The notes beneath the pieces are model-generated. The model had not been told where the DNA came from and did no database searches. It worked only from the letters and a program-made list of their open reading frames with translations. Below, piece after piece: positions 1 to 56,201 of a stretch of 64,000 nt of DNA (positions within the stretch are counted from its first letter, which is position 1; every line of letters begins with the position of its first letter). This stretch comes from Gracilariopsis chorda. Its lineage: Eukaryota; Rhodophyta; Florideophyceae; Gracilariales; Gracilariaceae. A program made the position numbers and the translations under genes. The stretch spans positions 32,337 to 96,336 of the forward strand of contig NBIV01000269.1 of assembly GCA_003194525.1 (NCBI GenBank), written 5' to 3'.

Positions 1-628
1 TAGAGGTATGTTTCCACGTAAGTGGGGGTGTGTGAGCGGATGCGCACACGAGAGCCGCGGATAGCAGGAGGTGCTACCCTAAAAAGGGGGGAAAGGAAGG
101 GTGAAGAGGAGGAAGAGAGGACGAAGTGAGTCGCGAGAGCGACGAACAGATACGGCAATGCCGGTGGACAGGACTCCGTATACAGGGCGAAACACCAATA
201 TGATTGGAACAACTATACTCTCAAGGATGGGCTTCTTTAGATGTGCAAGGGTGTTAGATGTCCCGTGGTTTATGGCGTTTCCCTCCAAGGAGGAGTAGAG
301 CACGCGCGCAAGCGGCAACAACTAGAGCCAATTCCCCAGGTTGGGGTCCCTTGTTGGGGAAGGTTTACTGGTGCGACGGCAATGCGCCGTCGCACTAAGT
401 ACTAGCTTCCCAGAAATGGGTGTAAAAATAATAAATAATATTAACTAAAATACTCCACATTTCGTGGCAACATCCACTACTGTGGCCAACCGCAAATTGA
501 CCCATAACCGTGTCCCACATGTCCATATCCACCATAGTGGGGCGTAGTTCATATACACACTACACAACCGATAATATCGGGAAAGCGTTCAAGTACCAAG
601 AATCCCTCCCTGAGGGCGTTGCACTACA
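1..628 (-). repeat. 3' LTR of the chromovirus
   Basis: Direct repeat of 9,097-9,724, with equal length and no net indel. In element orientation it begins TGTAGTGCAACG next to the polypurine tract. Its far end is probably about 12 bases outside the window. It contains many hairpins, the longest with a 10-bp stem and 5-base loop at 371-395. Confidence 0.93.
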
Positions 629-629
629 T

Positions 630-641
630 ATCCCCCCCCTA
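630..641 (-). other. Polypurine tract of the chromovirus
   Basis: On the minus strand a run of eight G flanked by A lies directly before the first base of the 3' LTR. That is the position of the plus-strand primer in LTR retrotransposons. It is absent at the outer edge of the other LTR, which fixes the LTR boundary at 628. Confidence 0.7.
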
Positions 642-884
642 AGACGGGAAAACGACCGCGGACGCGGAGGGTTCCCAGACGAAAATGGGTGATCAAAGCG
701 CGTACGCCGTCTCCGGTTCTTCTTTCCTGGCATATCCGGCTATTGTAGTATAGTGTTGTGGGGAGCTAGCTGCTCCCTTGAATAAACTTTCCCGTTTTGA
801 ACGGTGATTCTCGTTTGAGTTCCCCGTCTTAGACGGACCTTGCCTTGTTATCCTTTCCTATCGCCCTCTGTTCGCGCGGCAACG

Positions 885-2753
885 TTACCCAACTTGGGCA
901 TTTACCAGCGTGGCTGGAGCTGCAGTTCCCGTTTGACGGTGGTATCGCACGACCTGCGACCGTGGGAGGTGTTCGATTGGCTCCCACGTATTCCCACTGG
1001 GGTCATACCCGTACCAGCGGACGCGGTATTGTAGAATACCATCCTGGTCCCAGGTGTGTCCGACAAGTCGGTCTACTACGAACTCTCGTTCGTAGACCTC
1101 CCGGCCGTGCCGGGTGGTGGTTTTACTTCCTTGCAGGGGCTCCCCGCGGTGCGGTATAATGTCCCTTAGCAGGGTGTTCGGTGATAACTCCGGCGTTGCC
1201 GTGCGCTGTGATAGCGGCCGCTGCTCATGCGGGAAGATATCCCTCAAGAGGGTGTGTGGTGCCACGGTTCTCACCGGCAAGTCATTCCCCATTGGGGCAG
1301 GTTCATTTCCGCTTTCGCGGTATTGCGGGCGAACCGCCAGTCGGCGGGGGACTTGGGCTCGGCCTTCGCGGTTGAGCTCACGAACCGCGAGTTTGCGGGA
1401 AGATGACCGCTCCTGCGGAATCGGCATTTCCACAATCCCCTGGGGGGTCCCGTGCGACACGTTGATTGGGTGGCAAATCGCCTCCCTGCCAGGCGCACGA
1501 GCGCTCTGCACCATACGTTCCGGCGATGCCGTGGTGTCCCCGGCTACTGACGGGTTGCCTCGGGCTAACTCCGGTACACCGGTATTTTGGTCAAAAATCG
1601 CCTTTGGGGGGTGCCGGGCAGGTGCCGATGACACCCTTTTCAGGGACTTGGCCGCTAAGTGCGGTGCACCGTCTCCACGCGGAGGAGCAGCGTCCGGTAT
1701 GACCGGTTTCGAGCGTGCGATGGCGTGCGCTTTTTCCGAGTTCCTCGGTTCTTCCCCGCAGCGTTGCGGGAGGTGGCGCAAATTATTCCCCGGAACGGGG
1801 GCTTCAATTCCGTCGACGACGGGAGGCGTTTCCGGCGCTTGCGGGCCAGGGCCTGAAGCTTCGGCTGCGGCTTGGCTGCCTTTTTCCCCAGGTTGGGTGT
1901 GGGGATTTCCCAGCGGCGCTGGTGTATGTGGGCGCCTCTTCTCCGCAAGGCGCGGGTCTGATCGACCTGATTGAACCGCTTCCGCAGGGACTTCCGCCAA
2001 CGGCGGCTTCGAGGCATCGCCCTGCTCAGGGGATTGGGGGCAATCGTCACCATACTCCCTTATCGGGGATCCTTCCCTGACAGGGGGGTGCGGTAGTTGC
2101 GCTTCAACTTCCCGTGTAGCACGGTATATTTTCCGCGTTTGTGGCGATGCCTCCGGGGATGAATCGGGCGATTGCATTTCCGCTGCTGCGGTATTGGAGG
2201 GAGGCTTCTCTTTTTCCCGTGAAAAACGGTGTATTTGCCGCTTTTGTGGGGCCTGCGCGTCTGGTTTCTGTTGCACAGCACTGCCCGGGAACGGGGGATT
2301 AGTGTCGCGTGACATACTCCGTGCTCCACGGTCAGTGTTCCGTATGTTACGGTGTGCTTCCCGTTGCGACGGCGATATCGTTCCTCGAAAACGAGTGTTC
2401 TCCTCCCCCTCCTTAGACGGAGCGGCGGGATAAGGGATAACATTCCCCGCTTGGCGGGTATAAATGCGCGCCAATGGGGCGGGCGTGGTAGGGGCGGGCG
2501 CTGAGAGGCCCGAACTACCCGGCTGAGCTGGTGAATCCGACAGGGTCGGTAGGTCTGAGAGTCCCCGACTGGGGTGTGGTAGTACCGTAGGCCTAGTACT
2601 CCCGGATGATTCCGGTGTTGCAGAGTCCGTAGAAACGGGGTTGCCTGGATCCAGGACTAACTCTGACGAGGGAGGAGGGGCAAGGACAACACGATCACGG
2701 GAAATCCGTTCGTGCGTGTCGCCCATCTCTACCACGACAGTGTCGGTGTTCAC
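885..2753 (-). CDS. Pol C-terminal part: long Pro/Arg/Ser-rich linker plus chromodomain
   Basis: 622 codons read in the same frame as the integrase above it, after one in-frame TAG near 2,760. Most is low-complexity, rich in Pro, Arg, Ser and Glu, with loosely repeated pieces (RKIYR and TLLRDI each occur twice). The last 70 residues form a chromodomain: YEREFVVDRL, then QYRVRWYGY and NTWEPIEHL, the aromatic and W-E signature. Chromodomains of chromoviruses direct integration to marked chromatin. A linker of over 500 residues between integrase and chromodomain is much longer than usual. It could be a separate protein or a readthrough tail. Chromodomain is certain; linker function is unknown. 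Confidence 0.85.
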   Translation of the reverse strand: MNTDTVVVEMGDTHERISRDRVVLAPPPSSELVLDPGNPVSTDSATPESSGSTRPTVLPHPSRGLSDLPTLSDSPAQPGSSGLSAPAPTTPAPLARIYTRQAGNVIPYPAAPSKEGEENTRFRGTISPSQREAHRNIRNTDRGARSMSRDTNPPFPGSAVQQKPDAQAPQKRQIHRFSREKEKPPSNTAAAEMQSPDSSPEASPQTRKIYRATREVEAQLPHPPVREGSPIREYGDDCPQSPEQGDASKPPLAEVPAEAVQSGRSDPRLAEKRRPHTPAPLGNPHTQPGEKGSQAAAEASGPGPQAPETPPVVDGIEAPVPGNNLRHLPQRCGEEPRNSEKAHAIARSKPVIPDAAPPRGDGAPHLAAKSLKRVSSAPARHPPKAIFDQNTGVPELARGNPSVAGDTTASPERMVQSARAPGREAICHPINVSHGTPQGIVEMPIPQERSSSRKLAVRELNREGRAQVPRRLAVRPQYRESGNEPAPMGNDLPVRTVAPHTLLRDIFPHEQRPLSQRTATPELSPNTLLRDIIPHRGEPLQGSKTTTRHGREVYEREFVVDRLVGHTWDQDGILQYRVRWYGYDPSGNTWEPIEHLPRSQVVRYHRQTGTAAPATLVNAQVG

Positions 2754-2762
2754 AGAGATGAC

Positions 2763-3503
2763 CTAGAATGGTCCATCCGCCACAGGCGAGAGTTTATGGC
2801 GCTTCTCCCGTTCCGGGTTGTAGTACTCCTTCCTGATGAAGATGTATTTATTCGCCCGAATCGGGGACGGTTTTCTTCGCAAGCGAGCATCAAAATCCCG
2901 CTTGTAAGCGGCTTGGGCCCGTGCCATAGACTTCCGCGCAGCGGGGACCAGCTTGGTAAGCCATTGATTCCATTGCTGCCGGTAGATACCCACAGATGGG
3001 AAATTGTCCAAGGTAGCTTGGGGTTCCAGCGCGACAGGCGGGGGTGTTCTAGATAGAACCAAATCGAATGGCGAAACTCCGGTAGTCCGGTGTACCTGCG
3101 TGTTGTACGCGTAGGTTACCGCATCAGCGTAGAGATCCCAATTCGTTGGGTGGTCAGCGACGTAGGAACGTAACGCCGCGAGTAACGTCCAGTTAAACCG
3201 TTCAACTTGCCCATTACACTGGGGGTGGTAGGTAGTCGTGAACAAGTTCTTGACATCCAGGATGCGACAAACATCCTGGAAGAACTTGCTCACGAACTGC
3301 TTCTGGTTGTCGGAGAGCACCTCCACAGGGGGACCGTGGACAATAATCCACTGCGTCACCAGAGCCTGGGCCACCGTGAGAGCGGTTATCCTCCGAAGAG
3401 GGACAGTCCGTACCAGCTTAGAAAAGCGGTCGGTAATGACAAGTAGAAACTTGTTTCCACGTTTCGTGGTGAGTAGTGGTCCGAGAATATCGATCGCGAT
3501 AAA
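2763..3503 (-). CDS. Integrase catalytic core (rve) of the chromovirus
   Basis: Continues the pol frame after the in-frame TAG at 3,504-3,506. The DDE triad is visible: Asp in FIAIDILGPL (codon 3,489-3,491), Asp in VLSDNQKQF, and Glu in HPQCNGQVERFN. Spacing fits a Ty3-type retroviral integrase. The C-terminal part (AAYKRDFDARLRR, then RANKYIFIRKEYY) matches the usual post-core region. It ends at another in-frame TAG, after which the frame runs on into the chromodomain tail. Family membership is certain; activity is doubtful because of the stops. Confidence 0.9.
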   Translation of the reverse strand, partial: FIAIDILGPLLTTKRGNKFLLVITDRFSKLVRTVPLRRITALTVAQALVTQWIIVHGPPVEVLSDNQKQFVSKFFQDVCRILDVKNLFTTTYHPQCNGQVERFNWTLLAALRSYVADHPTNWDLYADAVTYAYNTQVHRTTGVSPFDLVLSRTPPPVALEPQATLDNFPSVGIYRQQWNQWLTKLVPAARKSMARAQAAYKRDFDARLRRKPSPIRANKYIFIRKEYYNPEREKRHKLSPVADGPF

Positions 3504-6500
3504 CTAGAGCGGCGCCCTGGCGGGGAATAGTTTCATCTTCTTCGCATTTTTGCGGAGCTTGACGCGATTCTTCGCGCATTCGCTACAAAACCGCACGGTT
3601 GCGTAGCAATCCACCGCCATGGCAGGCCAATAGAAATCCCTTCGCAGGGTTAGGTAGAGTTTCCTCCCACCTGGGTGACCTCCAATGGGGGCGTAGTGTG
3701 ATAGATGTAACACCCGCGATTGCAGGGAATGAGATACCACAATCTGTGGGCGGGCTTCGACCTTCCTTACGAGGTAGCCTTTGTCGTTTACCCCGAAAGG
3801 GAGATCTTCACCACCGTTGATACGGGCACGAATCCTCGTACAGAATGGGTCGCCGAATTGTTCTCGGATCATTTCTTCCGGTGATACCGGTACAAAGTTT
3901 CCCGGTAACGGGTTCTCAGATTCATCTCGCGATGCGAGTAGTTCGTCAAAGTCAGCATCCTCGTCCCAGTTTTCTGGCCCAGCCTCGACGGCACATTCCG
4001 GATTATCCGCTTCTATGGCCATGAAACATGGGACTTTATCATCCTCCGTTGGGAGTGCTTCCCCACTTGTGGGTAACCGCGACAAGGCGTCGGCTTGGGT
4101 GTTCTGTGCGCCCTTTTTATAAATGACTTGAAAGTCATATTCGGCGAGGCGGAGTCTCCAGCGCATGAGGCGTCCCGACGGGTCGGAGATATTCATCAAC
4201 CACCTCAATGAGGAATGATCCGTGTACACGGTGAAGTGAACTCCCATAAGGTAGGGGCGCAGAGTGGTCATCGCCCATACGATGGCGAGGCACTGTTTCT
4301 CCGATACGGAGTAGTTCCGCTCATGAACATTGAGCGAGCGCGACCAATAACCAATTGGATGTCGTTCCCCCTCGGGGGTGGTTTGAAAAAGAGCACACCC
4401 GACTTGGTAGTCGCTCGAGTCCGTATCTACGGAGTATGGCAACCGAAGTTTTGGGAGATGTAGAATTGGTGCTGATGTGACAGCCTCCTTCAAGGAGTTA
4501 GAGGCTTCCGATTGCTCGGGCGTAAATGTTCCTAGTTTTGGGGAGTTCCCCTTTCGCAACAACGCGTTCAGGGGCGCTGCAGTATCCGAAAAGTTCGGGA
4601 TAAACCGTCGATAGACGTTGAACAGCCCCAGAAAGGAGCGCAGTTCCGTTTGAGTACGGGGTTCTTTCGCCTCAACGAGGGATTTGACTCGAGCTTTCTC
4701 GATCGCTAACCGTCCAGGACGGATAATGTGACCCAGATACTTCACAGTATCCGTGAAACACTCGCATTTCCTCAATTTGAGGGTAATTCCCGCATCGCGG
4801 AGTACGGTCAGCACGTCTCGGATGTGAGTGAGATGGTCGTTCAACGAGTTGGAGAAGATGATAATATCATCAAGGTAGACCGGACAACTCCGCCACTTAA
4901 AGTGGTTGCGTAGAATATTTACTGCACGCTGAAAGGTGGCGGGGGCGTTGGTTAACCCAAATGGCATCCGCTTGAAGCGGTACGTTCCTGCGTGGCAGGT
5001 GAATGCGGTTTTGTCGCGTTCCTCCTGTCTGACAGGTACTTGCCAATTTCCCCAATTGGCGTCAAGGGCCGTGAACACGGTGGCGTCTCCAAGGGAGTCA
5101 ATGCACTCGTCCATACGAGGGATAGGGTACGTGTCCCTAACGGTCACGGCATTGAGCCGGCGGTAGTCGACACAGAACCTCCAGGTTCCGTCGGCCTTTA
5201 AAGCCAGTACAACTGGGGATACCCATGGTGATTGAGCGGGCTCAATCACACCTGCGCGGAGCATCTTGTCCACTTGGGACTGCTCCTCTTCCCGAGCTTT
5301 CGGACCTGCCCTGTAAGGGGGTTGTGCAACCGGTCGCGCACCGGGGATTAAATCGATCCGGTGTTCCGTTGCATTAATCTCGCCAAGCGAGCCATCCCAT
5401 ATTGTGGTGAATTCCCGTAACATAGTACGGAGTTTGTCGCGGTGCGACTCTGGCACGTGGCTGAAGTTCAGCGCTTCAAGTGCTTTTTCCGGATCAATCC
5501 GGTCGTTGCTCGATGGAGCATTGTCCTGTGGAACAGGTGTGGTTCGCAATTCCAATTCCGAGTTACTCGGTATGTTCGACGCTGAAGTAGCGGTTTCCTC
5601 CCCCTCCTTAGACTTGACGTCTTCGGACGGCGAGGCGAACTCCTCAGAAGAGGTGGTAACTCCGAGTACATCGGCGGCTGTCATCGTTGTTGGCAGCATT
5701 CCCATAGGATGGGGGGTTACACTCCCAATTACTTGGTGTTTGACCAGATACTGGGGGTGTTTGCCAAGGTTGGCAACCAATATCCGGAAAGGGACATCCC
5801 GGGAAATGGAGACAATTCCATTAGCCAGCGCCAGCTGGGATTTCTCGTACAACGAGGCGAGGGGTTGTATAACCCGAAGACCGTGTTGACGGGAATTTAC
5901 CTGCACCCAGACTTGGGACTCAGCCGGTATAGAAACCGAGGCAGCGACGCAAAGCTTGGTGGACTCGCGGGACGCGGGCGGTGGTTCCTGCGCAGCAGGG
6001 AGCGGAACTTGTTTCCGAGAGGACCGCTTTAGCGGGCGGCGAACAATCGGAACCGACGATCCGTCGTCAAGTTCTACACGCCTGAGGCGGGGCCTGATTG
6101 CGTCGACAAATCTGTCGCAGTAATCACATCCCAGTATGACTGGTGCTGCCAATGAACGGCAAAAGATGAAGTCCAACTTTACCACAGAGGTACCAAGTCT
6201 CACGACGAGGTCCACTGTGCCCACCGTTTGTAACGGATTGTTGTTCTCATCCGAAATGTCGGGGACCGCGTCAGAGCGGATACGCGACCGCACAAGCGGG
6301 GGTAACAATGATTCCACAACGAAGTTGGGGCCTGCACCTGTATCCAGGACGGTGAGAAACCTCACCATAAACTGGGGGTCAAGGCCAAGGTCGGCATAGA
6401 CCTTATAGTTGCGCTTGGCCAAGACCAGGACTCTACCGGGAATCCGGGGATTTTTACTCCGTATCCACGGGCGACGCAACACACCGAGGTGCGCAGAGTC

Positions 6501-6599
6501 CGCGTCAGCGGTGTCTTTCCTCGAGAGGATTTTCACCGGGGAGCGAGGCGAGGACGCCTCGGGCGCCAACAGCCTCGTTCTTGAGGACGCCTCTCCCAA
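3504..6599 (-). CDS. Pol: protease, reverse transcriptase, RNase H, integrase zinc domain
   Basis: About 1,031 codons open. The aspartic protease site VLDTGAGPNF lies near residue 86. The RT has FTALDANWGNW and the catalytic YLDD near residue 574 (about 4,867-4,878). RNase H shows VDTDSSDYQVG and YTDHSSLRWL. The H-H-C-C integrase zinc domain is at the end (HYAPIGGHPGG, then FCSECAKN). The frame is -1 relative to gag and stays open upstream across the gag stop at 6,617, where the minus strand reads GGAAAAC before TAA. A -1 ribosomal frameshift is therefore plausible. The first codon of the open stretch is not ATG, which fits expression as a gag-pol fusion. Confidence 0.93.
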   Translation of the reverse strand: MGEASSRTRLLAPEASSPRSPVKILSRKDTADADSAHLGVLRRPWIRSKNPRIPGRVLVLAKRNYKVYADLGLDPQFMVRFLTVLDTGAGPNFVVESLLPPLVRSRIRSDAVPDISDENNNPLQTVGTVDLVVRLGTSVVKLDFIFCRSLAAPVILGCDYCDRFVDAIRPRLRRVELDDGSSVPIVRRPLKRSSRKQVPLPAAQEPPPASRESTKLCVAASVSIPAESQVWVQVNSRQHGLRVIQPLASLYEKSQLALANGIVSISRDVPFRILVANLGKHPQYLVKHQVIGSVTPHPMGMLPTTMTAADVLGVTTSSEEFASPSEDVKSKEGEETATSASNIPSNSELELRTTPVPQDNAPSSNDRIDPEKALEALNFSHVPESHRDKLRTMLREFTTIWDGSLGEINATEHRIDLIPGARPVAQPPYRAGPKAREEEQSQVDKMLRAGVIEPAQSPWVSPVVLALKADGTWRFCVDYRRLNAVTVRDTYPIPRMDECIDSLGDATVFTALDANWGNWQVPVRQEERDKTAFTCHAGTYRFKRMPFGLTNAPATFQRAVNILRNHFKWRSCPVYLDDIIIFSNSLNDHLTHIRDVLTVLRDAGITLKLRKCECFTDTVKYLGHIIRPGRLAIEKARVKSLVEAKEPRTQTELRSFLGLFNVYRRFIPNFSDTAAPLNALLRKGNSPKLGTFTPEQSEASNSLKEAVTSAPILHLPKLRLPYSVDTDSSDYQVGCALFQTTPEGERHPIGYWSRSLNVHERNYSVSEKQCLAIVWAMTTLRPYLMGVHFTVYTDHSSLRWLMNISDPSGRLMRWRLRLAEYDFQVIYKKGAQNTQADALSRLPTSGEALPTEDDKVPCFMAIEADNPECAVEAGPENWDEDADFDELLASRDESENPLPGNFVPVSPEEMIREQFGDPFCTRIRARINGGEDLPFGVNDKGYLVRKVEARPQIVVSHSLQSRVLHLSHYAPIGGHPGGRKLYLTLRRDFYWPAMAVDCYATVRFCSECAKNRVKLRKNAKKMKLFPARAPL

Positions 6600-6616
6600 A
6601 GGGGAGACTCCCTCAG

Positions 6617-8791
6617 TTAGTTTTCCGCCGTCGGCGGTGGGTTGGTTTCCTCGACAACGAGTGCTTCATCCCGTTGACGGGGGTTTCTATCCGCAAAAGC
6701 GGGGGTTGCAACGGATGGTTGCGTGATCTCCCGAATCGGGGTGTATGAAGCTTGCCGCGCACGCGTGGTCTGTGGTAGGGCGTGGGAAAAGTCCGTTTTA
6801 GCACGGAGGTAGGAAGCCGTCGGGACGGAACGTTTCTCCTCTGGAGTGAGGGCCTCATAATTTGCCACCACCTTGGCCATATTCTTCAGTGAACAAATAC
6901 ACTGAGGAGAGGTATGGCCATGGGCATAGCACAGGTGGCAAATGAGAGCCAGCACCGCGACACGCGGATTATTATTCCGAGTATCGGAGAAGCGAACCGC
7001 AGGGCGGGTGTCAGTTTATCCAGGCCGTTGATAACGGGATTGACCGTTTGAAAACGGGAGTCGTTGGGGTTGAACCCGACTGTTACCACCGTATAGAACG
7101 GGATCTTCTGTTCCCGTATCATGGGTCATCTCCGTCGTTGACGGCAACTCACTGGTGGGTATCGACACACCATCCCCCTGCGCTAAATGCACGGTATCAA
7201 ATCCCTGTCCAGGGTTCCCATCCGCAGTGAGCGGGAGTGAGGAAGCTTCACTTTCCAGCATCAACGCCTTGGCGGGTTTAGACCGATTGTTCGGAGTTCT
7301 TGCACGAAGTGCATCCCCTTCCGCTCGAGCGTGTTGGACCAGCTCGAGGTAGGTGAGCCTCCGCTTATCCTCCCGATAACGGGTAACTAAACTCCGGATT
7401 GCCGGGTCAAGACCATCGATGAACATGGTGCAGCGCTCCCCAGCGGGGTATACATTACCACATCTGTGGAAAGCCTTGTTAAGGCGCACCGAGTAATCGG
7501 TCTCGGTCTCTCCAGCACGCTGGCGTGTATCTTGCAAAGCGAGGATAGCCTGCTGAATAGCGGTGTTGGTGGCGTAGGAGCGCAGAAGATACTGCACAGC
7601 CTCCGGCCAGCAAGTAACTCCTCCCTCGGAGGCGCGAGAAGATCCTCTGACAGAGGTGTATTGGTCCTCCGCCACTCCCCGTAAGAAATACGGTAAAGCC
7701 AAATAGGCTTGTCCCTCATTCATACCGAGGATATCGGCCTCCGCTACAAAGCGGGATAGGAAATCCAGTACTAGGACTGGGTCCTCTCCAGTAAAATACT
7801 GGTTGCGGAGCGAGAGCTGCATTCGCTTAATGCATTCTCGCACCTTTCCCGTACCACGGGGCGTACGTCCAAGTGAGGAATCTTCGAGCCGGTAGTACCT
7901 GTATGATAAAAGCTTCCGGTAATCCGGGTTTGTCGGTTTCAATTCCCGGAGACCGGGGTGTCTTCTCCCCTTCTGGCGGGTTCGGACCACACCTTCAGTG
8001 GCCGATGACCGCTTCGAGCGGGAGGAGTAGCCTCGCTTCTCGTCCTCCGAGTCGGAGTCCGAGGAGCTCGAGCTAACCGAATGGTTTCGGGATGAGTCCG
8101 ACGATGTCGAAGAATCGGAGTCCGAATATTTTCGGTGGTGTTTCCGTCGGTGACGGCGTTTCTTCTTCCCAGCAAGCTGGTCGTTGTGCGATGCCTCGTT
8201 TACCGGATCACCCGGGGATGGTTTGTCCATGAGGACGAACTGCTCCAGCGTCTCCAGGCGGGCACCAATCCGATCAAATCGGGCTTCAACTCCTTCGATG
8301 AAGGTGGCGGGTTGTCCCAAACTCTCCAACACGGAGTTGACGTCAGACCGTAAAATACGGAGTTCCTCGGCGACCTCCTTTACGGGGGTTGCCAAGACCA
8401 CCTCTTAGAGGGATTTTAGTTCCCTTACAAGGGTGTCATGGGCGGTCCACAGAGCGTGGACCTGGGATTCCAGGGAAGTCCCCTGGGGGTTGTTATCGCC
8501 CGTTCCACGGGGGCTTGAAGCCGCGACAGCGGGAGCAGGCCGGGGTGCCTGGGGCACTGCGGCAACAGCCGGAGTCGATGCTGCATTCCCCTGCGGGTGT
8601 GATAACGAGGGAAAAAGGAGGTTCCGGGGTTCCCAGTCGGGGGTATCATTCCGCGATGAAGCGGCGCCAGCACGGCTGGAACTTGTTCGTATAGGAATAC
8701 GGGGTACGAACCGAACTTCGGAAGTGTCCGCGTTGTCGCGGGAGCGACTACGCGTAACCACTGGCTCCGCATCGGAGGGATTTCTCGACAT
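6617..8791 (-). pseudogene. Gag polyprotein with CCHC zinc knuckle, two in-frame TAA stops
   Basis: Begins at ATG 8,789-8,791 (MSRNPSDAEP). It runs in one frame to 6,617, about 725 codons, with in-frame TAA at about 8,405 and 7,016. The N-terminus is Ser/Pro/Ala-rich. The middle has a Lys/Arg/Ser-rich tract, then a retrotransposon gag core (about 7,400-7,800; YFTGEDPVLVLDFLSRF, FIDGLDPAIRSLV). The C-terminal knuckle CHLCYAHGHTSPQC has CX2CX4HX4C spacing. The first TAA lies exactly in the 3-base loop of a hairpin, CCTC-TTA-GAGG. Gag packages element RNA. Only substitutions break it, so decay is slight, or stops are read through. Confidence 0.85.
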
Positions 8792-9084
8792 GAGAAAATA
8801 CCGTTACGACGGGAAACGATCACGGAACTTCCGGTAAATAAAAACAAACCTCGTAAGAGGGAAAACAAAAACCGATTCTAGGTCGGGAGACCACTTTGTG
8901 GTGCAACGCCCCAAAGGGGAGAAACACCGAAAGACGTTCGGGATCTTTCCTCCTTGGAGGTGAACCCAGTTGGGTAGAGCCCTCTAAGGGGTGTCACGAC
9001 GAAGCCAGTGAGTAAGACCAGGAACACCTGTCGTGACTTGCACAGGAAGGTGAAGGCGAAGAATCGGTATCCGCGTGAGCGGAG
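8792..9084 (-). other. Untranslated leader between 5' LTR and gag
   Basis: About 290 bases without a convincing coding frame. It holds many hairpins: CCAC-TTT-GTGG and CCCC-AAA-GGGG near 8,890-8,925, CCTCC-TT-GGAGG near 8,950, AACCCAGTTGGGT near 8,965. A leader in this position normally carries packaging and dimerisation signals. I could not assign a tRNA primer-binding site: the bases next to the LTR do not start with TGG. Confidence 0.6.
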
Positions 9085-9724
9085 TGTGATCCTCAGTAGA
9101 GGTATGTGTCCACGTTATTGGGGGTGTGTGGACGGATGTGCAGACGAGAGCCGCGGATAGCGGGAGGTGCTACCCTAAAAAGGGGTAAAAGGAAGGGCGA
9201 AGAGGAGGAAGGGAGGACAAAGTGAGTCGCGAGAGCGACGAACAGATACGGCAATGCCGGTGGACAAGACTCCGTATACAGGGCGAAACACCAATATGAT
9301 TGGAACAACTATACTCTCAAGGATGGGCTTCTTTAGATATGCAAGGGTGTTAGATGTCCCGTGGTTTATGGCGTTTCCCTCCAAGGAGGAGTAGAGCACG
9401 CGCGCAAGCGGCAACAACTAGAGCCAATTCCTCAGGTTGGGGTCCCTTGTTGGGGAAGGTTTACTGGTGCGACGGCAGTGCGCCGTCGCACTAAGTACTA
9501 GCTTCCCAGAAATGGGTGTGAAAATAATAAATAATATTAACTAAAATACTCCACATTTCGTGGCAACATCCGCTACTGTGGCCAACCGCCAATTGACCCA
9601 AAACCGTGTTCCACGTGTCCATATCCACCATAGTGGGGCGTAGTTCATATACACACTACACAACCGATAGTATCGGGAAAACGATCAAATACCAGGAATC
9701 CATCCTTGAGGGCGTTGCAGTACA
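9085..9724 (-). repeat. 5' LTR of the chromovirus
   Basis: Partner of 1-628. In plus orientation it starts TGTGATCC at 9,085 and ends TACA at 9,724. The right flank from 9,725 is coding sequence of another gypsy element, which fixes the edge. Several differences from the left LTR fall in hairpin loops (AAT to AGT within CCGAT-loop-ATCGG), leaving stems intact. Confidence 0.9.
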
Positions 9725-10256
9725 AACCGCAACGCGCTTTGTGCCCTGACTAGGAATCATCTGGCCAAAGCGGCTGCCCGCCAGAAGTAATATGCATATC
9801 AGCGCCGCAGAGATGTCTCGTTCCAGACAGGCGATCTGGTTCTCCTTGAAGCCGACTCACTCTCGCTTGCGCGTCAGTGCCACTTTGCCAAAAAAGTGGC
9901 AGCCTCGATATATTGGACCTTTCCGGATTGTGGATGTTCTGGGCCCGGTGACATACCGTATTGAGCTCCCCCCCGCCATGAAACGAGCCCACGACGTCAT
10001 TCATGTTTCAAAGTTGAAAGCGTATCACGTTGGGAATCACGACACTCTTGATATTGTGATCAACAACGACGGTGAAGTGGAACAAGAAGTAGCAGATGTG
10101 CTGGAAAAGCGCATGTTTCACAGACGTGTTTTTTACCTCGTGCGATTCACCAACAACACTCCCGATGACGCGGTTTGGCTCCCGGGAACTTCACTGAAGA
10201 ACTGTAAAGACGCAGTTCGAAAGTTCAACTGGAAAGGAAAGCCAATGGGACATTGA
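9725..10256 (+). pseudogene. Older Ty3/gypsy relic: integrase C-terminus and chromodomain
   Basis: The frame starts right at the LTR edge (NRNALCALTRNHLAKAAARQK), meets a TAA, and continues with QRRRDVSFQTGDLVLLEADS, the typical post-integrase GPY/F module. After a frameshift in an A6 run near 9,890 it goes on as KKWQPRYIGPFRIV, VTYRIELP and HDVIHVSKLKAY. It ends in a degenerate chromodomain (VLEKRMFHRRVFYLVRF, then DDAVWLPGTSL). The host element was plus strand and the chromovirus landed in its pol gene. Its upstream part lies outside the window. Confidence 0.88.
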
Positions 10257-23864: not shown

Positions 23865-25738
23865 CTAGCGCGGCAACCGCAGACGATTTGATCCTCTAAC
23901 TTCTTGTTCTCCCTTTCCGCGAATACCGTCGTGCTTATCACGCTTCGCTATTGCACTGCGCCGTCGTAGAAGCGCACGAATCGAGACAATGTCGTCCGCC
24001 GGGCTCTGGAAAAGGGAAGGCAGGGGCGCTTTGACCCGCAAACGGGCAAGAACTCTTTGAGTGCGTTTCTCGATCTTTTGGTTCGGATCTTCATTTTCCT
24101 TTCCGCTGAAAAGGTCTTCCGCCCTCACGTTCGGAGACCACTTATTCTTTGTCAACCACATGGCTGGCGTTTGATCCACTTTTGACACATTAAATTTGAT
24201 GAAACGAACTGGTGCGCGTAGCGGCGCCGATTCCCACAACACTCTGTTCGATGTACGGTTTCTTTGCAAGATGTTCTCTACGGATGTTACAGAAATTGTT
24301 GGGTCTTCGGTTTCGGCGAGAACTCTCCTCAACTCACTACAGATCGCCTTGTCTGTACAGCGCAATCGATCAGATCTTCTCACCTTCTGGCTTCTGCTTT
24401 CCGTTGACATTGTTGTCCCTTCAAGCCGTCGCTGCACTTTATCTCGCAACTTATCCACAAACGCGTTACTCAATGGCCATAAACAGACGTCTACAAAACT
24501 TTTGTTGACGATCTCCCTGGTAATTGCCCGATAACCGGCCATGGCGAGCTTCATTTTGAAACTCATGTTTGCATGCGAAAACTCTCCTGTCAACAAAAGC
24601 TGGTCACGAATTTCTCTGCTTTCTTGTTTGAAGTGTTTGTTAATGTGAGAATCACATGGCTGTAGGAAGTGGGATGTATTAGCGGGAAGTTGAATTGCGT
24701 GTATATTGAACTTCATGCATTCTTCTACCCATTCGGTTCCTTTTCGTGAACTGTGGCCATCTAGAAGAACAAGAACGGACTTCGAATCTGGAACGAATTG
24801 GCGTAGAAACTCCGCAAAGTGTTTCACCAAATGTTTCAATGTGTTTGCATCCATTGAACCTTTCGGTGTACATCTTATCGTTGTTCCTTTCGGAACCCAG
24901 TTATTGTAACCAAATCACTCGTACTTAGCCGGAAGCAATCGCAGCACTTTCTGTTCCATCGCATTCATCCACTTTGGCATGCCCTTCTTCCCGGCGACTA
25001 TGAGGAATGGAGGTGCTACTTTTCCAGAAACCCAAGCCACAATTACTGCAGTAACGTGCTTCCCATTGTCTTTGAGATCGTGTCGGCGTCCGGGGTGGTG
25101 CGTTTTTGACGATGAGAATACTTTAACCTTCTTTCCATGCTGCGCACTAACTGCCGTCTCGTCCAAATTCCATATTCTCTGTGGGTCCTCGAACAGGTCT
25201 GGTTCTTCTTTCTGCAACTCAGAAAGCGCTAAACTCAGAGTCTGAACATGCTCCACACTTTCCCCTTCAAAGTGTTTGTGGCACATATCCTCAGCAGAAC
25301 GAAATGTCAACTCTCGATTCCTTGCTCGGAAGGACCGCAATGCATCTTCCGAAGGAATGCCTCGTTTATATCCTACGCGTCCATCAGAAGCAACTGCTCC
25401 CATTAGTGTTCTCATGTTGTTGACATCCAGCGCAAATCCGCGGCTTGCTGCAAACAACGTGCGTTCCACAATCGCGTCTTCTTCGGATTTGGTGAGCGTC
25501 TTTGGTCGTCCGGGAAAGTGTACTACTGGATTAAGGAGTCTGTTGAGTTTTGCTGTGTGTTTGTTCTTTAATGCTGCATACAAGAGGTATGCAATGGAAC
25601 GAGAAAGACTACATGCTGATGCTACCGCACGCGCTTTTTTGCCTTGTATGAGCAGCTCTACTGCTCGTTCGCGTTTCGCTTTTTCTGTCAGTCTGCGTTG
25701 TGTTCAGTTTTTGAGTCGGGCTGTCTGGCGTCTCATGG
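23865..25738 (-). pseudogene. DDE transposase, pogo/CENP-B type, two in-frame TGA
   Basis: From ATG 25,736-25,738 (MRRQTARLKN) one frame runs to 23,865, about 620 codons, with TGA near 25,706 and 24,915. The N-terminus has an HTH (RERAVELLIQGKKARAVASA), then GRPKTLTKSEEDAI. The catalytic acids are in WNLDETAVSAQHG, VLVLLDGHSSR and LPANTSHFLQPCD, a DDD arrangement typical of Tigger/pogo. The C-terminal tail is basic. Transposase cuts at the TIRs and pastes at TA sites. Both stops are single TGA substitutions and the frame is otherwise intact over 1.87 kb. Confidence 0.88.
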
Positions 25739-31140: not shown

Positions 31141-32790
31141 TTGTCACCATCACAATTCGCACAAATGGGACGCATATTTCTGCCCGATGACTCGGTCAAC
31201 TCAGCAGCGTACTGGAAGAACAAGGGCATGGTTTTACAAGGGATCGTAGCGCAGAGAGGACCGCCTTCTCTTTTCATTACAATCACCATCACCATGAACA
31301 TCTGGAGAGAGGACATCCAGCGCCTTGGTATGGATACCAGCAATCGGAGCGCATTTACGGCACAGATTAACCGCCATCGACCGTTTAACCGACCTGATCT
31401 GATTGCAAGGGTGTACAAACAGTACGCAAACGACTTCATGAAGGACTTGGAGAAGAAATTGGAGCACATCTTTGGATTGAAGTGCTTGCGGCTTGCATCA
31501 AAGCTCGAGTTTCAAGAGCGCAATGTGCCTCATCACTACATGCTCGTGTGGCTCGAAGAAGGCGTGATTGAAGACGTTGATGTGATCGACAAGCTCATTC
31601 GTGCAGAACTTCCTCTTCCCGGTGAAGACGACGCGTTGCGTGCCCTTATTTGTTCCATGCACAGGCACCACCACTCCCTCTATTGCCGGAATCGAGCTGG
31701 GCGTTGCAAGTTTGGATACGACCGCAACATGATTGTGCCGGAGACGTACATTGAAGATGGCACGAATCGCGTGGTCTACCGGAGAACAAGGCAACATGAC
31801 CTCAAGATTGTGCTGTACAACCCAACTCTGACCAAGAAGTACCGCTCTCATATCAACTTTGAACGCAGGGAAGGAGGGGGCGCAATGGCTTATCTGATGA
31901 AATATGCGTTTAAGCACCCCAAAGCTCAGGAGGTGGTGCTCAATGTGACTGGTGCTAATGAGACAGGCACACACAACCAGCAGCAACAAGAGCCGCAGGT
32001 GCAGAACGACATTCGTGCATACATGCGAGCGCGTGTGGTGGGCGCCGTCAATGCAGCTTGGAGAATTTTCGAGTTTCGACATGTTCACATCGTACCAAAA
32101 CTAGAGCGACTGGCCATTCACTTGGAAGGAGAGCGCACATTTCTGCTGAGAGGTCCATACCAGCTTCTTTCTGCATCGCAGCCGTCTACACTGGAGAGAT
32201 ACTTTGCAAGGCCCGAAGCATACGCGAACCTCGACCACCTTTCGTACTTTGAAAAAGTTCGATTGTATCGCACGCTTCAAGCCCAAGTGCTTAACCAGTA
32301 CGACGGAGACAGCACTCAGGTGCCCACAGACGAATACCATCCGCCCATGTACGTGGTACAGCGCACGGAAGACGAGCAGTGCGTCGCAAGGATCAGAGGT
32401 GTTCCATCGTCCGACATTAAGCTCTTTGCTCTGCGCTTGCTGCTCATGATTCACGGCTCGAGCTCTTATGAAGACGCAAGGACTTTCAACGGACAGCAGT
32501 ATGGACCGTATCGTGAAACTGCGATTGTAAGCGGACTGCTCGCGGACGGATCCGAGTTTGATATTGCATTCAAAGAAGCAGTGCAGATCTACAGCACGCC
32601 CTCCGAGCTACGACGTCTGGTTGGCACACTATACCAACAAGGCGCAGACCCAGAGAAAATCGCTGTCGACAACTGGGAGGCGCTATGTAGCGACATACAT
32701 ACAGGAGATGAGCAGCAACGAAAGCCAGAAATGTATCGACGTGTGGTGGAGATACTCAGACCGGCACGGAGGATGACTGCTTCGCGATGA
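31141..32790 (+). CDS. Helitron A Rep (HUH-type) domain, uninterrupted
   Basis: 549 codons. Shows SLFITITITMN, RPDLIARVYKQYANDFMKDL, the EFQERNVPHHYMLVWLEEG motif, then LYNPTLTKKYRSHINFE and MAYLMKYAFKH with the paired Tyr positions. FEFRHVHIVPKLERLAIHL follows. Rep nicks one strand at the element's ends to start rolling-circle transposition. The usual PHAHIL becomes PHHYML here, so the second HUH histidine is shifted or lost (see findings). The frame is intact, unlike the rest of the element, and almost identical to 54,552-56,201. Confidence 0.87.
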   Translation: MSPSQFAQMGRIFLPDDSVNSAAYWKNKGMVLQGIVAQRGPPSLFITITITMNIWREDIQRLGMDTSNRSAFTAQINRHRPFNRPDLIARVYKQYANDFMKDLEKKLEHIFGLKCLRLASKLEFQERNVPHHYMLVWLEEGVIEDVDVIDKLIRAELPLPGEDDALRALICSMHRHHHSLYCRNRAGRCKFGYDRNMIVPETYIEDGTNRVVYRRTRQHDLKIVLYNPTLTKKYRSHINFERREGGGAMAYLMKYAFKHPKAQEVVLNVTGANETGTHNQQQQEPQVQNDIRAYMRARVVGAVNAAWRIFEFRHVHIVPKLERLAIHLEGERTFLLRGPYQLLSASQPSTLERYFARPEAYANLDHLSYFEKVRLYRTLQAQVLNQYDGDSTQVPTDEYHPPMYVVQRTEDEQCVARIRGVPSSDIKLFALRLLLMIHGSSSYEDARTFNGQQYGPYRETAIVSGLLADGSEFDIAFKEAVQIYSTPSELRRLVGTLYQQGADPEKIAVDNWEALCSDIHTGDEQQRKPEMYRRVVEILRPARRMTASR

Positions 32791-36952: not shown

Positions 36953-38340
36953 CTACTCACAAACTGAGAGATTTCTGACAGAACCACCCAGTACAAACTC
37001 TAAGAATAATTTCTCTCCACAAGGATGCATGGCAACAAAGTGGTTTGATCCCTTCACCACTGCAACATTCCTCTTCAACACAGGGTCAAGGTCAGTAACA
37101 CCTTCCATCGGGGTTGCAGAATCTAAATCACCGACAAGTACTAAAGCTGAAATTTCTCTTTGCAGCCCCCTTTCCAGAGGAAGTCCCTCCCTCCTCAGCT
37201 GTGTTGGTGGTATGGAAGTACAGAGCTTTGCCGTAGATTCAAATGCTTCAGTGAGGTAGAATGGAGAATACCCATTCAGACCAACTTTGTGTAGGACATC
37301 AAAAATAAGGCTAGCTATTCTTTCGAAGAATCCTGCGTTGGGGTCCCATGGAATAAGTCGACAATGGTATTACACGTGGTTGATACCGCCATTGCGATTG
37401 ACCAGTTGCGGAGAGGTACTAACCTTGGGTCAAATTCTTCTGCCAACGCTTGCAGGCCAGTGTAGTTTCTATCATCAGCGGCGGAAGCAATCGCTTCGGG
37501 AAAGGAATCAGGTGTGAACCGGTACACGTGGTATAGTAGTCTTGGATCGATCTTCAGATCCTCTCTCAGAGCTCTGTTCCATCGCAAACGCCAAAGAACT
37601 GACTTCAATTGGTTACTGAACGATTCCATGGAAAATTTCGGATTCTCTCTGTGCTTTTCAGCATATATTCGAGCATATGCTTCATGATTCCGGACCTGAT
37701 ACAAATCTTTGTCCCGCATTGGTACTGGAGAATCTAACAACATCGAACCGATGCTGTTAGGATAGAGCAATCCATAGACTTGCGAGATGAGTCCACCGTA
37801 TGAATAGCCAAATAAGTCCCACTTTTTGAAACCAAGGGCAATTCGAAGCAATTCCAGATCATTTACGATTGCTGTGGCTGAATAGTGAAAAACTTCATCG
37901 CCAATCTCCGAAAGACAGCGCCGGATGTCAAATAGATCTATATCGAGGTGTAATGAGAGCGGCTTCTGTTGAAGTGAACAATTTAGTCGAGAGCCATTCC
38001 CAGTTCCCCGTGGATCGAATAAGATTACTGGACGCTGCAGCTCGTTTACAAGCTGAAATGAAGTGATTCCCGCCGGATGGTGTGTCAAGAGAGCGCCACC
38101 AGGACCTCCAGGGATGATTACAAGTGCCCTTTTGAACTCTAATGGAATGGTAGGGGTGGTTATGGCGTAAAACCTAGAGATAGTGACATTTGTAGAAGGA
38201 TTGGCATGATCGAGAGGCACTGTGAGCTTCCCACAGGTCGAGTTGGAAAGATGTGGTGGACAGGCGATGATCTCTATTGAGGCGTGTGTCAGAGATGTGA
38301 ATACAAGTAGTGACAAGATGAGTAAACAGTATTGCAACAT
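36953..38340 (-). CDS. Secreted alpha/beta hydrolase, S33 (prolyl/tripeptidyl aminopeptidase-like)
   Basis: ATG 38,338-38,340 opens a signal peptide (MLQYCLLILSLLVFTSLTHA). An in-frame upstream ATG at 38,404 is less likely. Motifs in order: oxyanion PGGPGG, ILFDPRGTGNGS, nucleophile elbow GYSYGG, then after a frameshift near 37,345 the acid LVGDLDSATP and the histidine in KGSNHFVAMHPCG. All three catalytic residues are present, about 462 residues in all. The frame breaks once, by a single base, so either the gene has one recent lesion or the assembly lost a base. Such enzymes cleave N-terminal residues from peptides outside the cell; substrate unknown. No relatives nearby. Confidence 0.85.
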
Positions 38341-38449
38341 TGTGAAGTCCAATAGGAAATGTAATGGCTTTGAATAGAACAGTCTGAGACTCTGAAGCGG
38401 ATGCACCGTAGTTGAATACTGAATACTGAAGTGGAGAAGTTTGAGTCTA

Positions 38450-54551: not shown

Positions 54552-56201
54552 TCATCGCGAAGCAGTCATCCTCCGTGCCGGTCTGAGTATCTCCATCACA
54601 CGTCGATACATTTCTGGCTTTCGTTGCTGCTCATCTCCTGTATGTATGTCGCTACATAGCGCCTCCCAGTTGTCGACAGCGATTTTCTCTGGGTCTGCGC
54701 CTTGTTGGTATAGTGTGCCAACCAGACGTCGTAGCTCGGAGGGCGTGCTGTAGATCTGCACTGCTTCTTTAAATGCAATATCAAACTCGGATCCGTCCGC
54801 GAGCAGTCCGCTTACAATCGCAGTTTCACGATACGTTCCATACTGCTGTCCGTTGAAAGTCCTTGCGTCTTCATAAGAGCTCGAGCCGTGAATCATGAGC
54901 AGCAAGCGCAGAGCAAAGAGCTTAATGTCGGACGATGGAACACCTCTGATCCTTGCGACGCACTGCTCGTCTTCCGTGCGCTGTACCACGTACATGGGCG
55001 GATGGTATTCGTCTGTGGGCACCTGAGTGCTGTCTCCGTCGTACTGGTTAAGCACTTGGGCTTGAAGCGTGCGATACAATCGAACTTTTTCAAAGTACGA
55101 AAGGTGGTCGAGGTTCGCGTATGCTTCGGGCCTTGCAAATTATCTCTCCAGTGTAGACGGCTGCGATGAAGAAAGAAGCTGGTATGGACCTCTCAGCAGA
55201 AATGTGCGCTCTCCTTCCAAGTGAATGGCCAGTCGCTCTAGTTTTGGTACGATGTGAACATGTCGAAACTCGAAAATTCTCCAAGCTGCATTGACGGCGC
55301 CCACCACACGCGCTCGCATGTATGCACGAATGTCGTTCTGCACCTGCGGCTCTTGTTGCTGCTGGTTGTGTGTGCCTGTCTCATTAGCACCAGTCACATT
55401 GAGCACCACCTCCTGAGCTTTGGGGTGCTTAAACGCATATTTCATCAGATAAGCCATTGCGCCCCCTCCTTCCCTGCGTTCAAAGTTGATATGAGAGCGG
55501 TACTTCTTGGTCAGAGTTGGGTTGTACAGCACAATCTTGAGGTCATGTTGCCTTGTTCTCCGGTAGACCACGCGATTCGTGCCATCTTCAATGTACGTCT
55601 CCGGCACAATCATGTTGCGGTCGTATCCAAACTTGCAACGCCCAGCTCGATTCCGGCAATAGAGGGAGTGGTGGTGCCTGTGCATGGAACAAATAAGGGC
55701 ACGCAACGCGTCGTCTTCACCGGGAAGAGGAAGTTCTGCACGAATGAGCTTGTCGATCACATCAACGTCTTCAATCACGCCTTCTTCGAGCCACACGAGC
55801 ATGTAGTGATGAGGCACATTGCGCTCTTGAAACTCGAGCTTTGATGCAAGCCGCAAGCACTTCAATCCAAAGATGTGCTCCAATTTCTTCTCCAAGTCCT
55901 TCATGAAGTCGTTTGCGTACTGTTTGTACACCCTTGCAATCAGATCAGGTCGGTTAAACGGTCGATGGCGGTTAATCTGTGCCGTAAATGCGCTCCGATT
56001 GCTGGTATCCATACCAAGGCGCTGGATGTCCTCTCTCCAGATGTTCATGGTGATGGTGATTGTAATGAAAAGAGAAGGCGGTCCTCTCTGCGCTACGATC
56101 CCTTGTAAAACCATGCCCTTGTTCTTCCAGTACGCTGCTGAGTTGACGGAGTCATCGGGCAGAAATATACGTCCCATTTGTGCGAATTGTGATGGTGACA
56201 A
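54552..56201 (-). pseudogene. Helitron A-right Rep domain, one in-frame TAA
   Basis: Nearly identical to 31,141-32,790 at protein and DNA level. A TAC to TAA change at 55,140-55,142 splits it into 353 and about 200 codons. Only a handful of other differences are visible (Ala to Ser in LLSASQ, Pro to Thr in QYGPYR, Val to Met in YRRVVEI). Confidence 0.87.

Follow-up and report, generated by a model that had tools for sequence, protein, structure and literature searches.

Small hairpins closed by CC and GG fill a Ty3/gypsy chromovirus of Gracilariopsis chorda and probably serve a job such as packing its RNA

Why should a retrotransposon with an ordinary polymerase carry short perfect inverted repeats along its whole length? 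The question is raised by a 64,000-nt window of the Gracilariopsis chorda genome (contig NBIV01000269.1; coordinates without further label are positions in this window), in which domain profiles and a comparison of long terminal repeats (LTRs) identify positions 1-9724, on the minus strand, as a Ty3/gypsy chromovirus (Metaviridae). An initial annotation had described a hairpin every 20-35 bases of this element, with stems of 4-7 base pairs (bp) and loops of 2-5 nt. The six hairpins examined as its examples are all present where it placed them (that at 5231-5246 extends to a 10-bp stem, 5228-5249), and its sample counts hold: 15 hairpins with a stem of at least 5 bp and a loop of 2-6 nt lie wholly inside 5041-5560, plus one running to 5570 (14, of which 13 have loops of 2-5 nt, if a 3-nt loop with matching ends is counted as a loop of 1), and 31141-31410 contains one. 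Hairpins are present along the whole element, in coding and non-coding parts alike, at about 26 per kb across 9.7 kb, or roughly one in every 20-40 nt. The dense coverage is as described, with the correction that centre-to-centre distances peak at 16-28 nt with a long tail; binning at 5 nt up to distances of 150 nt revealed no periodicity past nearest neighbours. Rfam gave no match at gathering scores.

The element contains 197 perfect hairpins with a stem of at least 5 bp and a loop of 1-5 nt, as compared to 42 in dinucleotide shuffles. By loop size, the element and shuffle counts are 41 and 11.1 (loop 1), 42 and 7.4 (loop 2), 56 and 8.1 (loop 3), 36 and 8.2 (loop 4), 22 and 7.2 (loop 5) and 9 and 7.5 (loop 6), corresponding to enrichments of 3.7-6.9-fold for loops of 1-4 nt, 3.1-fold for 5 nt and 1.2-fold for 6 nt. 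Loops of 7-12 nt occur about as often as expected, except those of 10 nt (15 against 8.9), and palindromes with no loop are not enriched (7 against 10.4 expected). The excess is stronger than first described; it is limited to loops of 1-5 nt with a bounded stem, and there is no general excess of palindromes. In the rest of the window, loops of 1-5 nt at stems of at least 5 bp are about as frequent as expected, with some excess of stems of at least 6 bp at loops of 5-8 nt. The non-overlapping set entered for the whole element in Table 1 was picked by score from stems of at least 5 bp, or of 4 bp starting with CC or CT.

The hairpin density exceeds both protein-preserving controls and the density of other genes in the window. 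When protein and codon counts are kept (n = 300 shuffles), pol has 65 hairpins against 16.1 (standard deviation 4.0, maximum 29), gag 33 against 8.7 (maximum 18) and the C-terminal open reading frame (ORF) 35 against 11.8 (maximum 27); the integrase piece, with the lowest hairpin density among the four element ORFs, lies inside its null (7 against 3.2, maximum 10). Eleven other ORFs of the window have 1.9-7.7 hairpins per kb, within the ranges of their own codon shuffles, the highest being two LINE-like ORFs (13 against 9.0 and 11 against 7.5). Hairpins occupy all three codon phases and the pol protein is an ordinary Ty3 pol, in agreement with the proposal that they come largely from codon choice.

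Which elements carry the pattern was determined in the genome assembly (91.3 Mb, 1081 contigs), where at least 150 reverse transcriptase (RT) places were scored. Three Ty3 families, A, B and C, have an excess, and they are mutually ~67-69% identical in their longest pol stretches (12 representatives were compared by BLAST; the remaining B and C loci were assigned by profile). Family A, with at least 104 scored places, consists of two subfamilies, A1 and A2, that are ~91% alike. Hairpins per kb amount to 19.8-23.1 in A (30 copies compared), 10.9-11.8 in B (7 loci) and 11.0-14.8 in C (23 loci), as compared to 2.9-5.0 in base shuffles, and the ratios of observed to shuffled counts are 4.8-4.9, 2.5 and 2.8, respectively. 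No excess is seen in seven Copia loci of the 12 retrieved (0.7-1.0), a LINE (1.3), Helitrons (0.4-0.8) or a DDE element (0.8); the Tf2-like neighbour of the element has no clear short-hairpin excess (1.2 over 676 bases), and two host stretches gave 1.1 and 1.7. These data support the confinement of the pattern, within the genome samples, to one Ty3 clade. Further relatives were found as eight eukaryote-type Ty3 contigs (L079-L086) in prokaryote assemblies (Moorena, Robiginitomaculum, Gottesmanbacteria, Rhodospirillales and others), where they are likely contamination; a scan of viral contigs found none. One of the eight, L080, from another assembly and 48% identical in its best segment, is hairpin-dense (52 against 18.1, maximum 28 in 20 shuffles) also at the codon level (z of 4.6 in gag and 6.7 in pol), and a span of 13 nt is the commonest in it. 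L079, from the Moorena assembly, was not counted, as its ratio over dinucleotide shuffles is 1.73 but its codon-shuffle z only 1.7; nine similar hairpins at its positions 6293-7951, with 8-bp stems, GGCGCC-type cores and 3-nt loops (tac, tgc, ttc), make up part of its excess. L083 was rejected as an instance of the pattern because it is raised at all loop lengths (1.47; 48 against 23.0 for loops of 8-14 nt), and L081, L082 and L084-L086 have ratios of 0.79-1.23, so that the short-loop pattern is absent from the six more distant relatives, L081-L086.

Many of the hairpins are instances of one unit, 5'-CC-N7-10-GG-3' with two further inner pairs. The element contains 198 such units (20.4 per kb) and the other 54,276 bases of the window 29 (0.53 per kb); they end with the element, the last one starting at 9664 and the next lying beyond 12.5 kb. 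A strong enrichment is found for just one of the 16 inverted dinucleotide pairs, CC..GG, which is 2.1-2.5-fold enriched at gaps of 8-9 nt in A1, A2 and B, with a broader and weaker excess of up to 1.8-fold in C and none in three Copia loci. When CC..GG spans 13 nt, inner pairs three to five are formed in 49-53% of cases and the sixth in 23%; when it spans 12 nt, pairs three and four are formed in 56-60% and the fifth in 24%. The next inner pair beyond the stem is formed in 22-33% of A1 units, and pairs inside the loop are about at chance. The unit is mainly 5 bp with a 3-nt loop or 4 bp with a 4-nt loop. That the inner pairs stop and leave a loop of ~3 nt is as a folded single strand requires, and many of the hairpins counted above with loops of 1 or 2 nt are these same units, because the ends of their loops match by chance. 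Binding of a protein to a dyad in double-stranded DNA was set aside, since palindromes with no loop are not enriched and loop-internal pairs are about at chance.

The unit is bounded on its outer side as well. A sixth pair outside the CC/GG is avoided in A1, A2 and B (0.16, 0.15 and 0.09 against 0.24, 0.25 and 0.27 expected), and in family C it is favoured (0.42 against 0.26). In stems of at least 5 bp the outer pair is C-G in 65, 70 and 66% and G-C in 15, 12 and 12% of cases (A1, A2 and B, respectively), as compared to 29, 27 and 20% and 22, 24 and 39% in long-loop controls; stability alone does not require this bias in orientation. The comparison supersedes a count of outer pairs (212 C-G, 23 G-C) that was biased by the rule used to select hairpins. 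The base 3' of the unit is A in 45-46% of family A units, against 34-37% after other GG. The families differ at unit positions -1 and +1, where the base composition beside CC/GG also differs between them. Neighbouring hairpins in A1 and A2 tend to stand 6-12 nt apart and avoid gaps of 0-2 nt; only the latter avoidance, to which the score-based choice of non-overlapping hairpins may slightly add, is clear in B and C.

Is the pairing itself maintained? A simple contrast of stem and spacer divergence (fixed differences 0.035 against 0.082; private versus fixed, p = 8e-5 with copies L015 and L016 and p = 0.46 with L013) was rejected, as it is inflated by defining hairpins in one copy and by regional variation in divergence, and third-position results (6/208 against 72/768; 5/205 against 75/778) carry the same one-copy bias. 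Fairer tests define hairpins in both copies, and we relied on two of these. In the first, the real A1-A2 differences in pol were placed randomly over comparable sites (200 trials per copy pair). Three copy pairs share 65, 64 and 61 hairpins against 56.4, 54.6 and 50.9 under this scatter null, numbers reached in 0 of 200 trials each, and their stems differ at rates of 0.024, 0.025 and 0.032 against 0.034, 0.036 and 0.041 (9, 16 and 23 of 200 trials as low). In the second, codons were shuffled only between sites sharing the same codon and amino acid (300 trials) and families were compared, which differ at 34-36% of nucleotides; these comparisons share sequences and are not independent. Hairpins with the same centre number 9 against 3.1 (A2-B), 7 against 2.0 (A2-C) and 10 against 3.0 (A1-B), each reached in 0 of 300 trials, 7 against 2.4 in A1-C (1/300) and 5 against 1.9 in B-C (13/300). 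Those that have in addition changed on both sides number 4 against 0.6 in B-C (0/300), 4 against 1.2 in A2-B (9/300), 3 against 0.8 in A2-C (13/300) and 4 against 1.0 in A1-B (7/300); instances are given in Table 1. Most hairpins are not common to the families, density being kept more than position. These results support the maintenance of the array by selection on pairing.

Selection for a structured RNA, one of two causes initially suggested, is upheld by the shared-hairpin nulls as selection for hairpins, and is not supported as selection for general stability, given that CC..GG alone is strongly enriched, that families A and B avoid a sixth pair, and that the mean folding z-score is -1.09 (sense strand, averaged over 41 windows, each of 120 nt, with values of -0.03 and 0.38 for two Copia loci). 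The overall gain in folding is modest.

We propose that the nucleic acid of the element would form an array of ~250 small hairpins, mostly of 12-13 nt, each with a 4-5-bp stem closed at its base by 5'-CC..GG-3' and a loop of 3-4 nt, 6-12 nt between neighbours being favoured. That this is a selected array of single-strand hairpins we regard as highly probable, although several cruder tests were negative. The array would act as a single-stranded fold, most likely in the genomic RNA, a choice of molecule suggested by the life cycle of the element. Each hairpin may offer the element's own Gag/nucleocapsid a low-affinity docking site, with recognition at the base of the stem, and many such sites could jointly select the RNA and condense it into the virus-like particle. 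If a protein gripped small hairpins at their base, it would leave just such a bounded geometry with preferred ends in one orientation, and Gag is a natural candidate for the reader, since in the samples the clade of the element, not the host, decides which elements carry the array, and since Gag has a CCHC knuckle. RNA packaging by yeast Ty3 depends critically on the zinc finger (PMC4974528), and a review allows that similar packaging mechanisms may occur with Gag-like proteins (PMC6281560). We hold the explanation as a whole, with the hairpins as dispersed docking and packaging sites, to be evenly poised between right and wrong; Gag as the reader is our best guess and falls slightly short of that balance. 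More tentatively still, the array might be a second code of the entire clade, a bounded unit with family-specific ends and flanks that has co-diverged with the Gag reading it, such that a genome is recognized by its texture and not by one packaging site.

A number of observations weigh against this proposal. The pattern is weaker and shifted in family C, the 6-12-nt spacing is missing from B and C, and the hairpins of L080 lack CC/GG ends. Hairpins with paired changes are not significant between A1 and C (3 against 1.1, 36/300). When hairpins are taken from either subfamily, stem sites show no slowing (0.069 against 0.058 at other sites), although long-loop controls chosen in the same way change more than these stems (0.123, p = 0.0016). 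Over every hairpin, aligned pairs are unchanged between families in 0.42-0.50 of cases, as compared to 0.43-0.46 for long-loop controls, and two-sided changes stay paired in 0.38-0.50 against 0.14-0.50, above the control in only four of six comparisons. In one LTR piece stems change more than spacer with an A2 reference (7/68 against 11/276), with no such reversal when the reference is A1 (1/50 against 18/290), and in a linker piece the stems of long-loop controls match hairpin stems in conservation (3/104 against 7/228). The antisense strand folds much like the sense strand (z of -1.03), and the hairpins pair with a mean probability of 0.51. Nor does wobble pairing support RNA, as G-U is tolerated no more than A-C: units with one mismatch have sense-strand G-U/A-C counts of 12/30 in A1, 20/30 in A2, 11/23 in B and 14/23 in C, and pooled counts for A2, B, C and L080 are 374/489 against 2245/2387 in controls (p = 0.006). 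Finally, nucleotides 429-4979 of yeast Ty3 are dispensable in cis, according to the same study (PMC4974528).

The wobble result would fit an alternative in which the array has a different reader, a host RNA-binding factor acting in export, translation or granules, or resides in a different molecule, such as minus-strand cDNA that forms hairpins during reverse transcription; perfect stems and CC..GG ends are identical on both strands. Mutation skew can account for that result: private substitutions in the pol piece of family A copies (L001-L030, element sense) include 41 T>C against 15 A>G in A1 (p = 0.0007), G>A and C>T being balanced (51 and 44), and 14 T>C against 11 A>G in A2. The tilt towards A-C may stem from this skew, so the wobble test does not identify the folding strand. 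A general host factor would moreover have to act on one clade only, as the seven Copia loci have no excess. We consider a different reader or molecule unlikely, yet the strongest of the alternatives. Only a little less plausible is a general shielding of the RNA, a form of genome-scale ordered RNA structure (GORS), in which local folding protects against small-RNA silencing, nucleases or long double strands. It would agree with folding energies below those of shuffles, with hairpins along the whole element, with a neighbour spacing in family A that leaves few long open stretches and with bounded stems in A and B that would avoid long duplexes; shielding alone does not call for CC..GG over GG..CC ends.

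The second cause initially suggested, repeated correction of imperfect palindromes by template switching of the element's own RT, would make the hairpins a product of mutation and not of function. The stems are Watson-Crick with little wobble, and within the genome samples they are limited to one RT clade, as this mechanism would have it. It fits poorly with the remaining data, because copying would be open-ended, whereas these stems end after 4-5 bp, their ends are fixed and a further pair is avoided in A and B. Two-sided changes between the subfamilies are few, at 6 of 406, 9 of 342 and 6 of 375 pairs (4, 6 and 2 of them Watson-Crick), and the union of subfamily hairpins has 6 changes from one Watson-Crick pair to another in 582 pairs, as compared to ~30 of 406 that we estimate for efficient correction, or fewer under protein constraint. 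Correction would also not by itself slow the stems, yet they change less than the scatter null. We therefore regard it as improbable. Chance, base composition or codon usage can be dismissed. The GC content of the element (0.54-0.58 per 2 kb) is above that of most of the window, but its hairpin count is reached neither by dinucleotide shuffles nor, for gag, pol and the C-terminal ORF, by codon-preserving ones, and the Copia, LINE, Helitron and DDE samples reach ratios of only 0.4-1.3.

Table 1. Features of the element and selected hairpins (bp, base pairs; hairpins written as stem-loop-stem)
Feature	Coordinates	Strand	Remarks
Whole element	1..9724	-	264 non-overlapping hairpins, 35% coverage
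3' LTR (element sense)	1..628	-	final few bases beyond window; 8 hairpins with stem of at least 5 bp, loop 2-5
Purine run adjoining 3' LTR, likely polypurine tract	629..640	-	by eye
C-terminal ORF: chromodomain and long linker	885..2753	-	PF00385, 9.8e-11; hairpin-dense
Integrase core piece	2763..3374	-	rve 9.6e-05, 23 bits, under Pfam cut-off
pol ORF: RT, RNase H, integrase zinc-binding domain	3504..6599	-	Pfam; 65 hairpins
Hairpin CTCCG-tat-CGGAG	4299..4311	-	fourth pair C-G in A, T-A in B, G-C in C
Hairpin GATGAT-att-ATCATC	4857..4871	-	over catalytic YLDD codons
Hairpin CCGCT-tca-AGCGG	4968..4980	-	homologous position also forms a hairpin in B and C, with paired changes
Longest pol hairpin	5228..5249	-	10 bp, loop 2
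Hairpin CCCAT-cct-ATGGG	5701..5713	-	B has CCGCA-ccc-TGCGG at the homologous place
Gag zinc knuckle CX2CX4HX4C	6899..6940	-	by eye; outside gag ORF listed for window copy
gag ORF	7016..8401	-	33 hairpins; Agarophyton chilense proteins and Retrotrans_gag proteins among the relatives
5' LTR (element sense)	9097..9724	-	begins TGTA at 9724

The order of domains in the element (RT, RNase H, integrase zinc-binding and core domains) is that expected for Ty3/gypsy, the pol domains matching PF00078, PF17919/PF17917 and PF17921, and the chromodomain sits downstream of the integrase as in chromoviruses. The two LTRs are 95.06% identical over 628 bases. The best named relatives of both pol and Gag among the matches listed are from Agarophyton chilense. 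In keeping with a red-algal host of the Gracilariaceae, a protein encoded at 37315-38406 of the window shares 66% identity with a Gracilaria domingensis protein and 59% with one from Agarophyton chilense, and has further matches at 99, 85 and 71%. The CCHC knuckle pattern recurs in the majority line of an alignment of 18 Gag sequences, and a model of a Gag relative (P0124, mean pLDDT 60) has a capsid-like fold that weakly matches the Arc, MLV, HIV and Ty3 capsids (best E 1.8e-03). In many family A copies the frame at the pol match stays open over a long stretch (1885 codons in several copies, at most 1924); Gag and Pol may be a single ORF in family A that is split in the window copy. One A2 copy (L073) contains ~1.8 kb, at its positions 1876-3645, that is unmatched in the window copy (near window position 712); this is either a length difference between subfamilies in the 3' part or an insert in that copy. 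Hairpin density stays high all along L073. The element adjoins the end of a second Ty3 element at 9725-10256, with matches to SH3_Tf2-1 and, weakly, to a chromodomain at 9792-10256, and appears to have inserted into it. Elsewhere in the window, ORFs match Helitron_like_N (31141-32790 and 55140-56201) and DDE_1 (23865-24854), and LINE-like RT ORFs lie at 58640-60337 and 61618-63129.

In the textbook view, retroelements distinguish their own RNA from that of the cell mainly by a signal in the leader. Here a natural element bears hairpins over 9.7 kb, as do families at ~67-69% protein identity, and a 48%-identical relative is dense in them too, which shows that working enzymes and a dense structural code can be written into one genome. 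Judging from these sequences, the hairpins probably serve a job such as packing the element RNA, and the idea of multi-site packaging for Gag-based particles becomes directly testable. CC-N7-10-GG with inner pairs is in addition a simple signature with which families of this type can be sought. The initial annotation knew of no description of such an architecture, and we found none in open-licence full texts (subscription papers were not covered).

Several known systems resemble the array in part. In GORS, folding energy is lower than that of shuffles along the genome, in a diffuse manner without a common short unit. The element shares the lowered energy and differs in its local bounded hairpins, with a CC..GG unit of preferred end sequence and orientation, and in its modest energy gain. 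The genome of satellite tobacco mosaic virus is pictured as a linear row of local stem-loops; it is about tenfold shorter and no retroelement, and we know of no such common short unit in it. Correction of quasi-palindromes through template switching also leaves short perfect inverted repeats and predicts open-ended stems without fixed ends, and frequent paired changes, neither of which is found here (the sixth pair is favoured in C). Yeast Ty3 belongs to the same superfamily and its Gag has one CCHC knuckle, but the dispensability of most of its interior (PMC4974528) implies that packaging sites need not spread through the coding region. Closest are the dispersed packaging signals of MS2, picornaviruses and hepatitis B virus (HBV), many genome-wide stem-loops that share a recognition feature, which in MS2 is the apical loop with a bulged A (PMC6281560) and here the base of the stem. 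The element has spread stem-loops with a shared feature, and retention by selection on pairing emerges from the scatter and codon nulls and not from the cruder tests; it differs from those viruses in the density and nearly uniform geometry of its hairpins and in being an LTR retrotransposon, and protein binding is only predicted. Stem-loops that stand in rows and have a feature in common are already a known idea in RNA viruses, and the array is therefore best regarded as a variant of that idea and not as categorically new.

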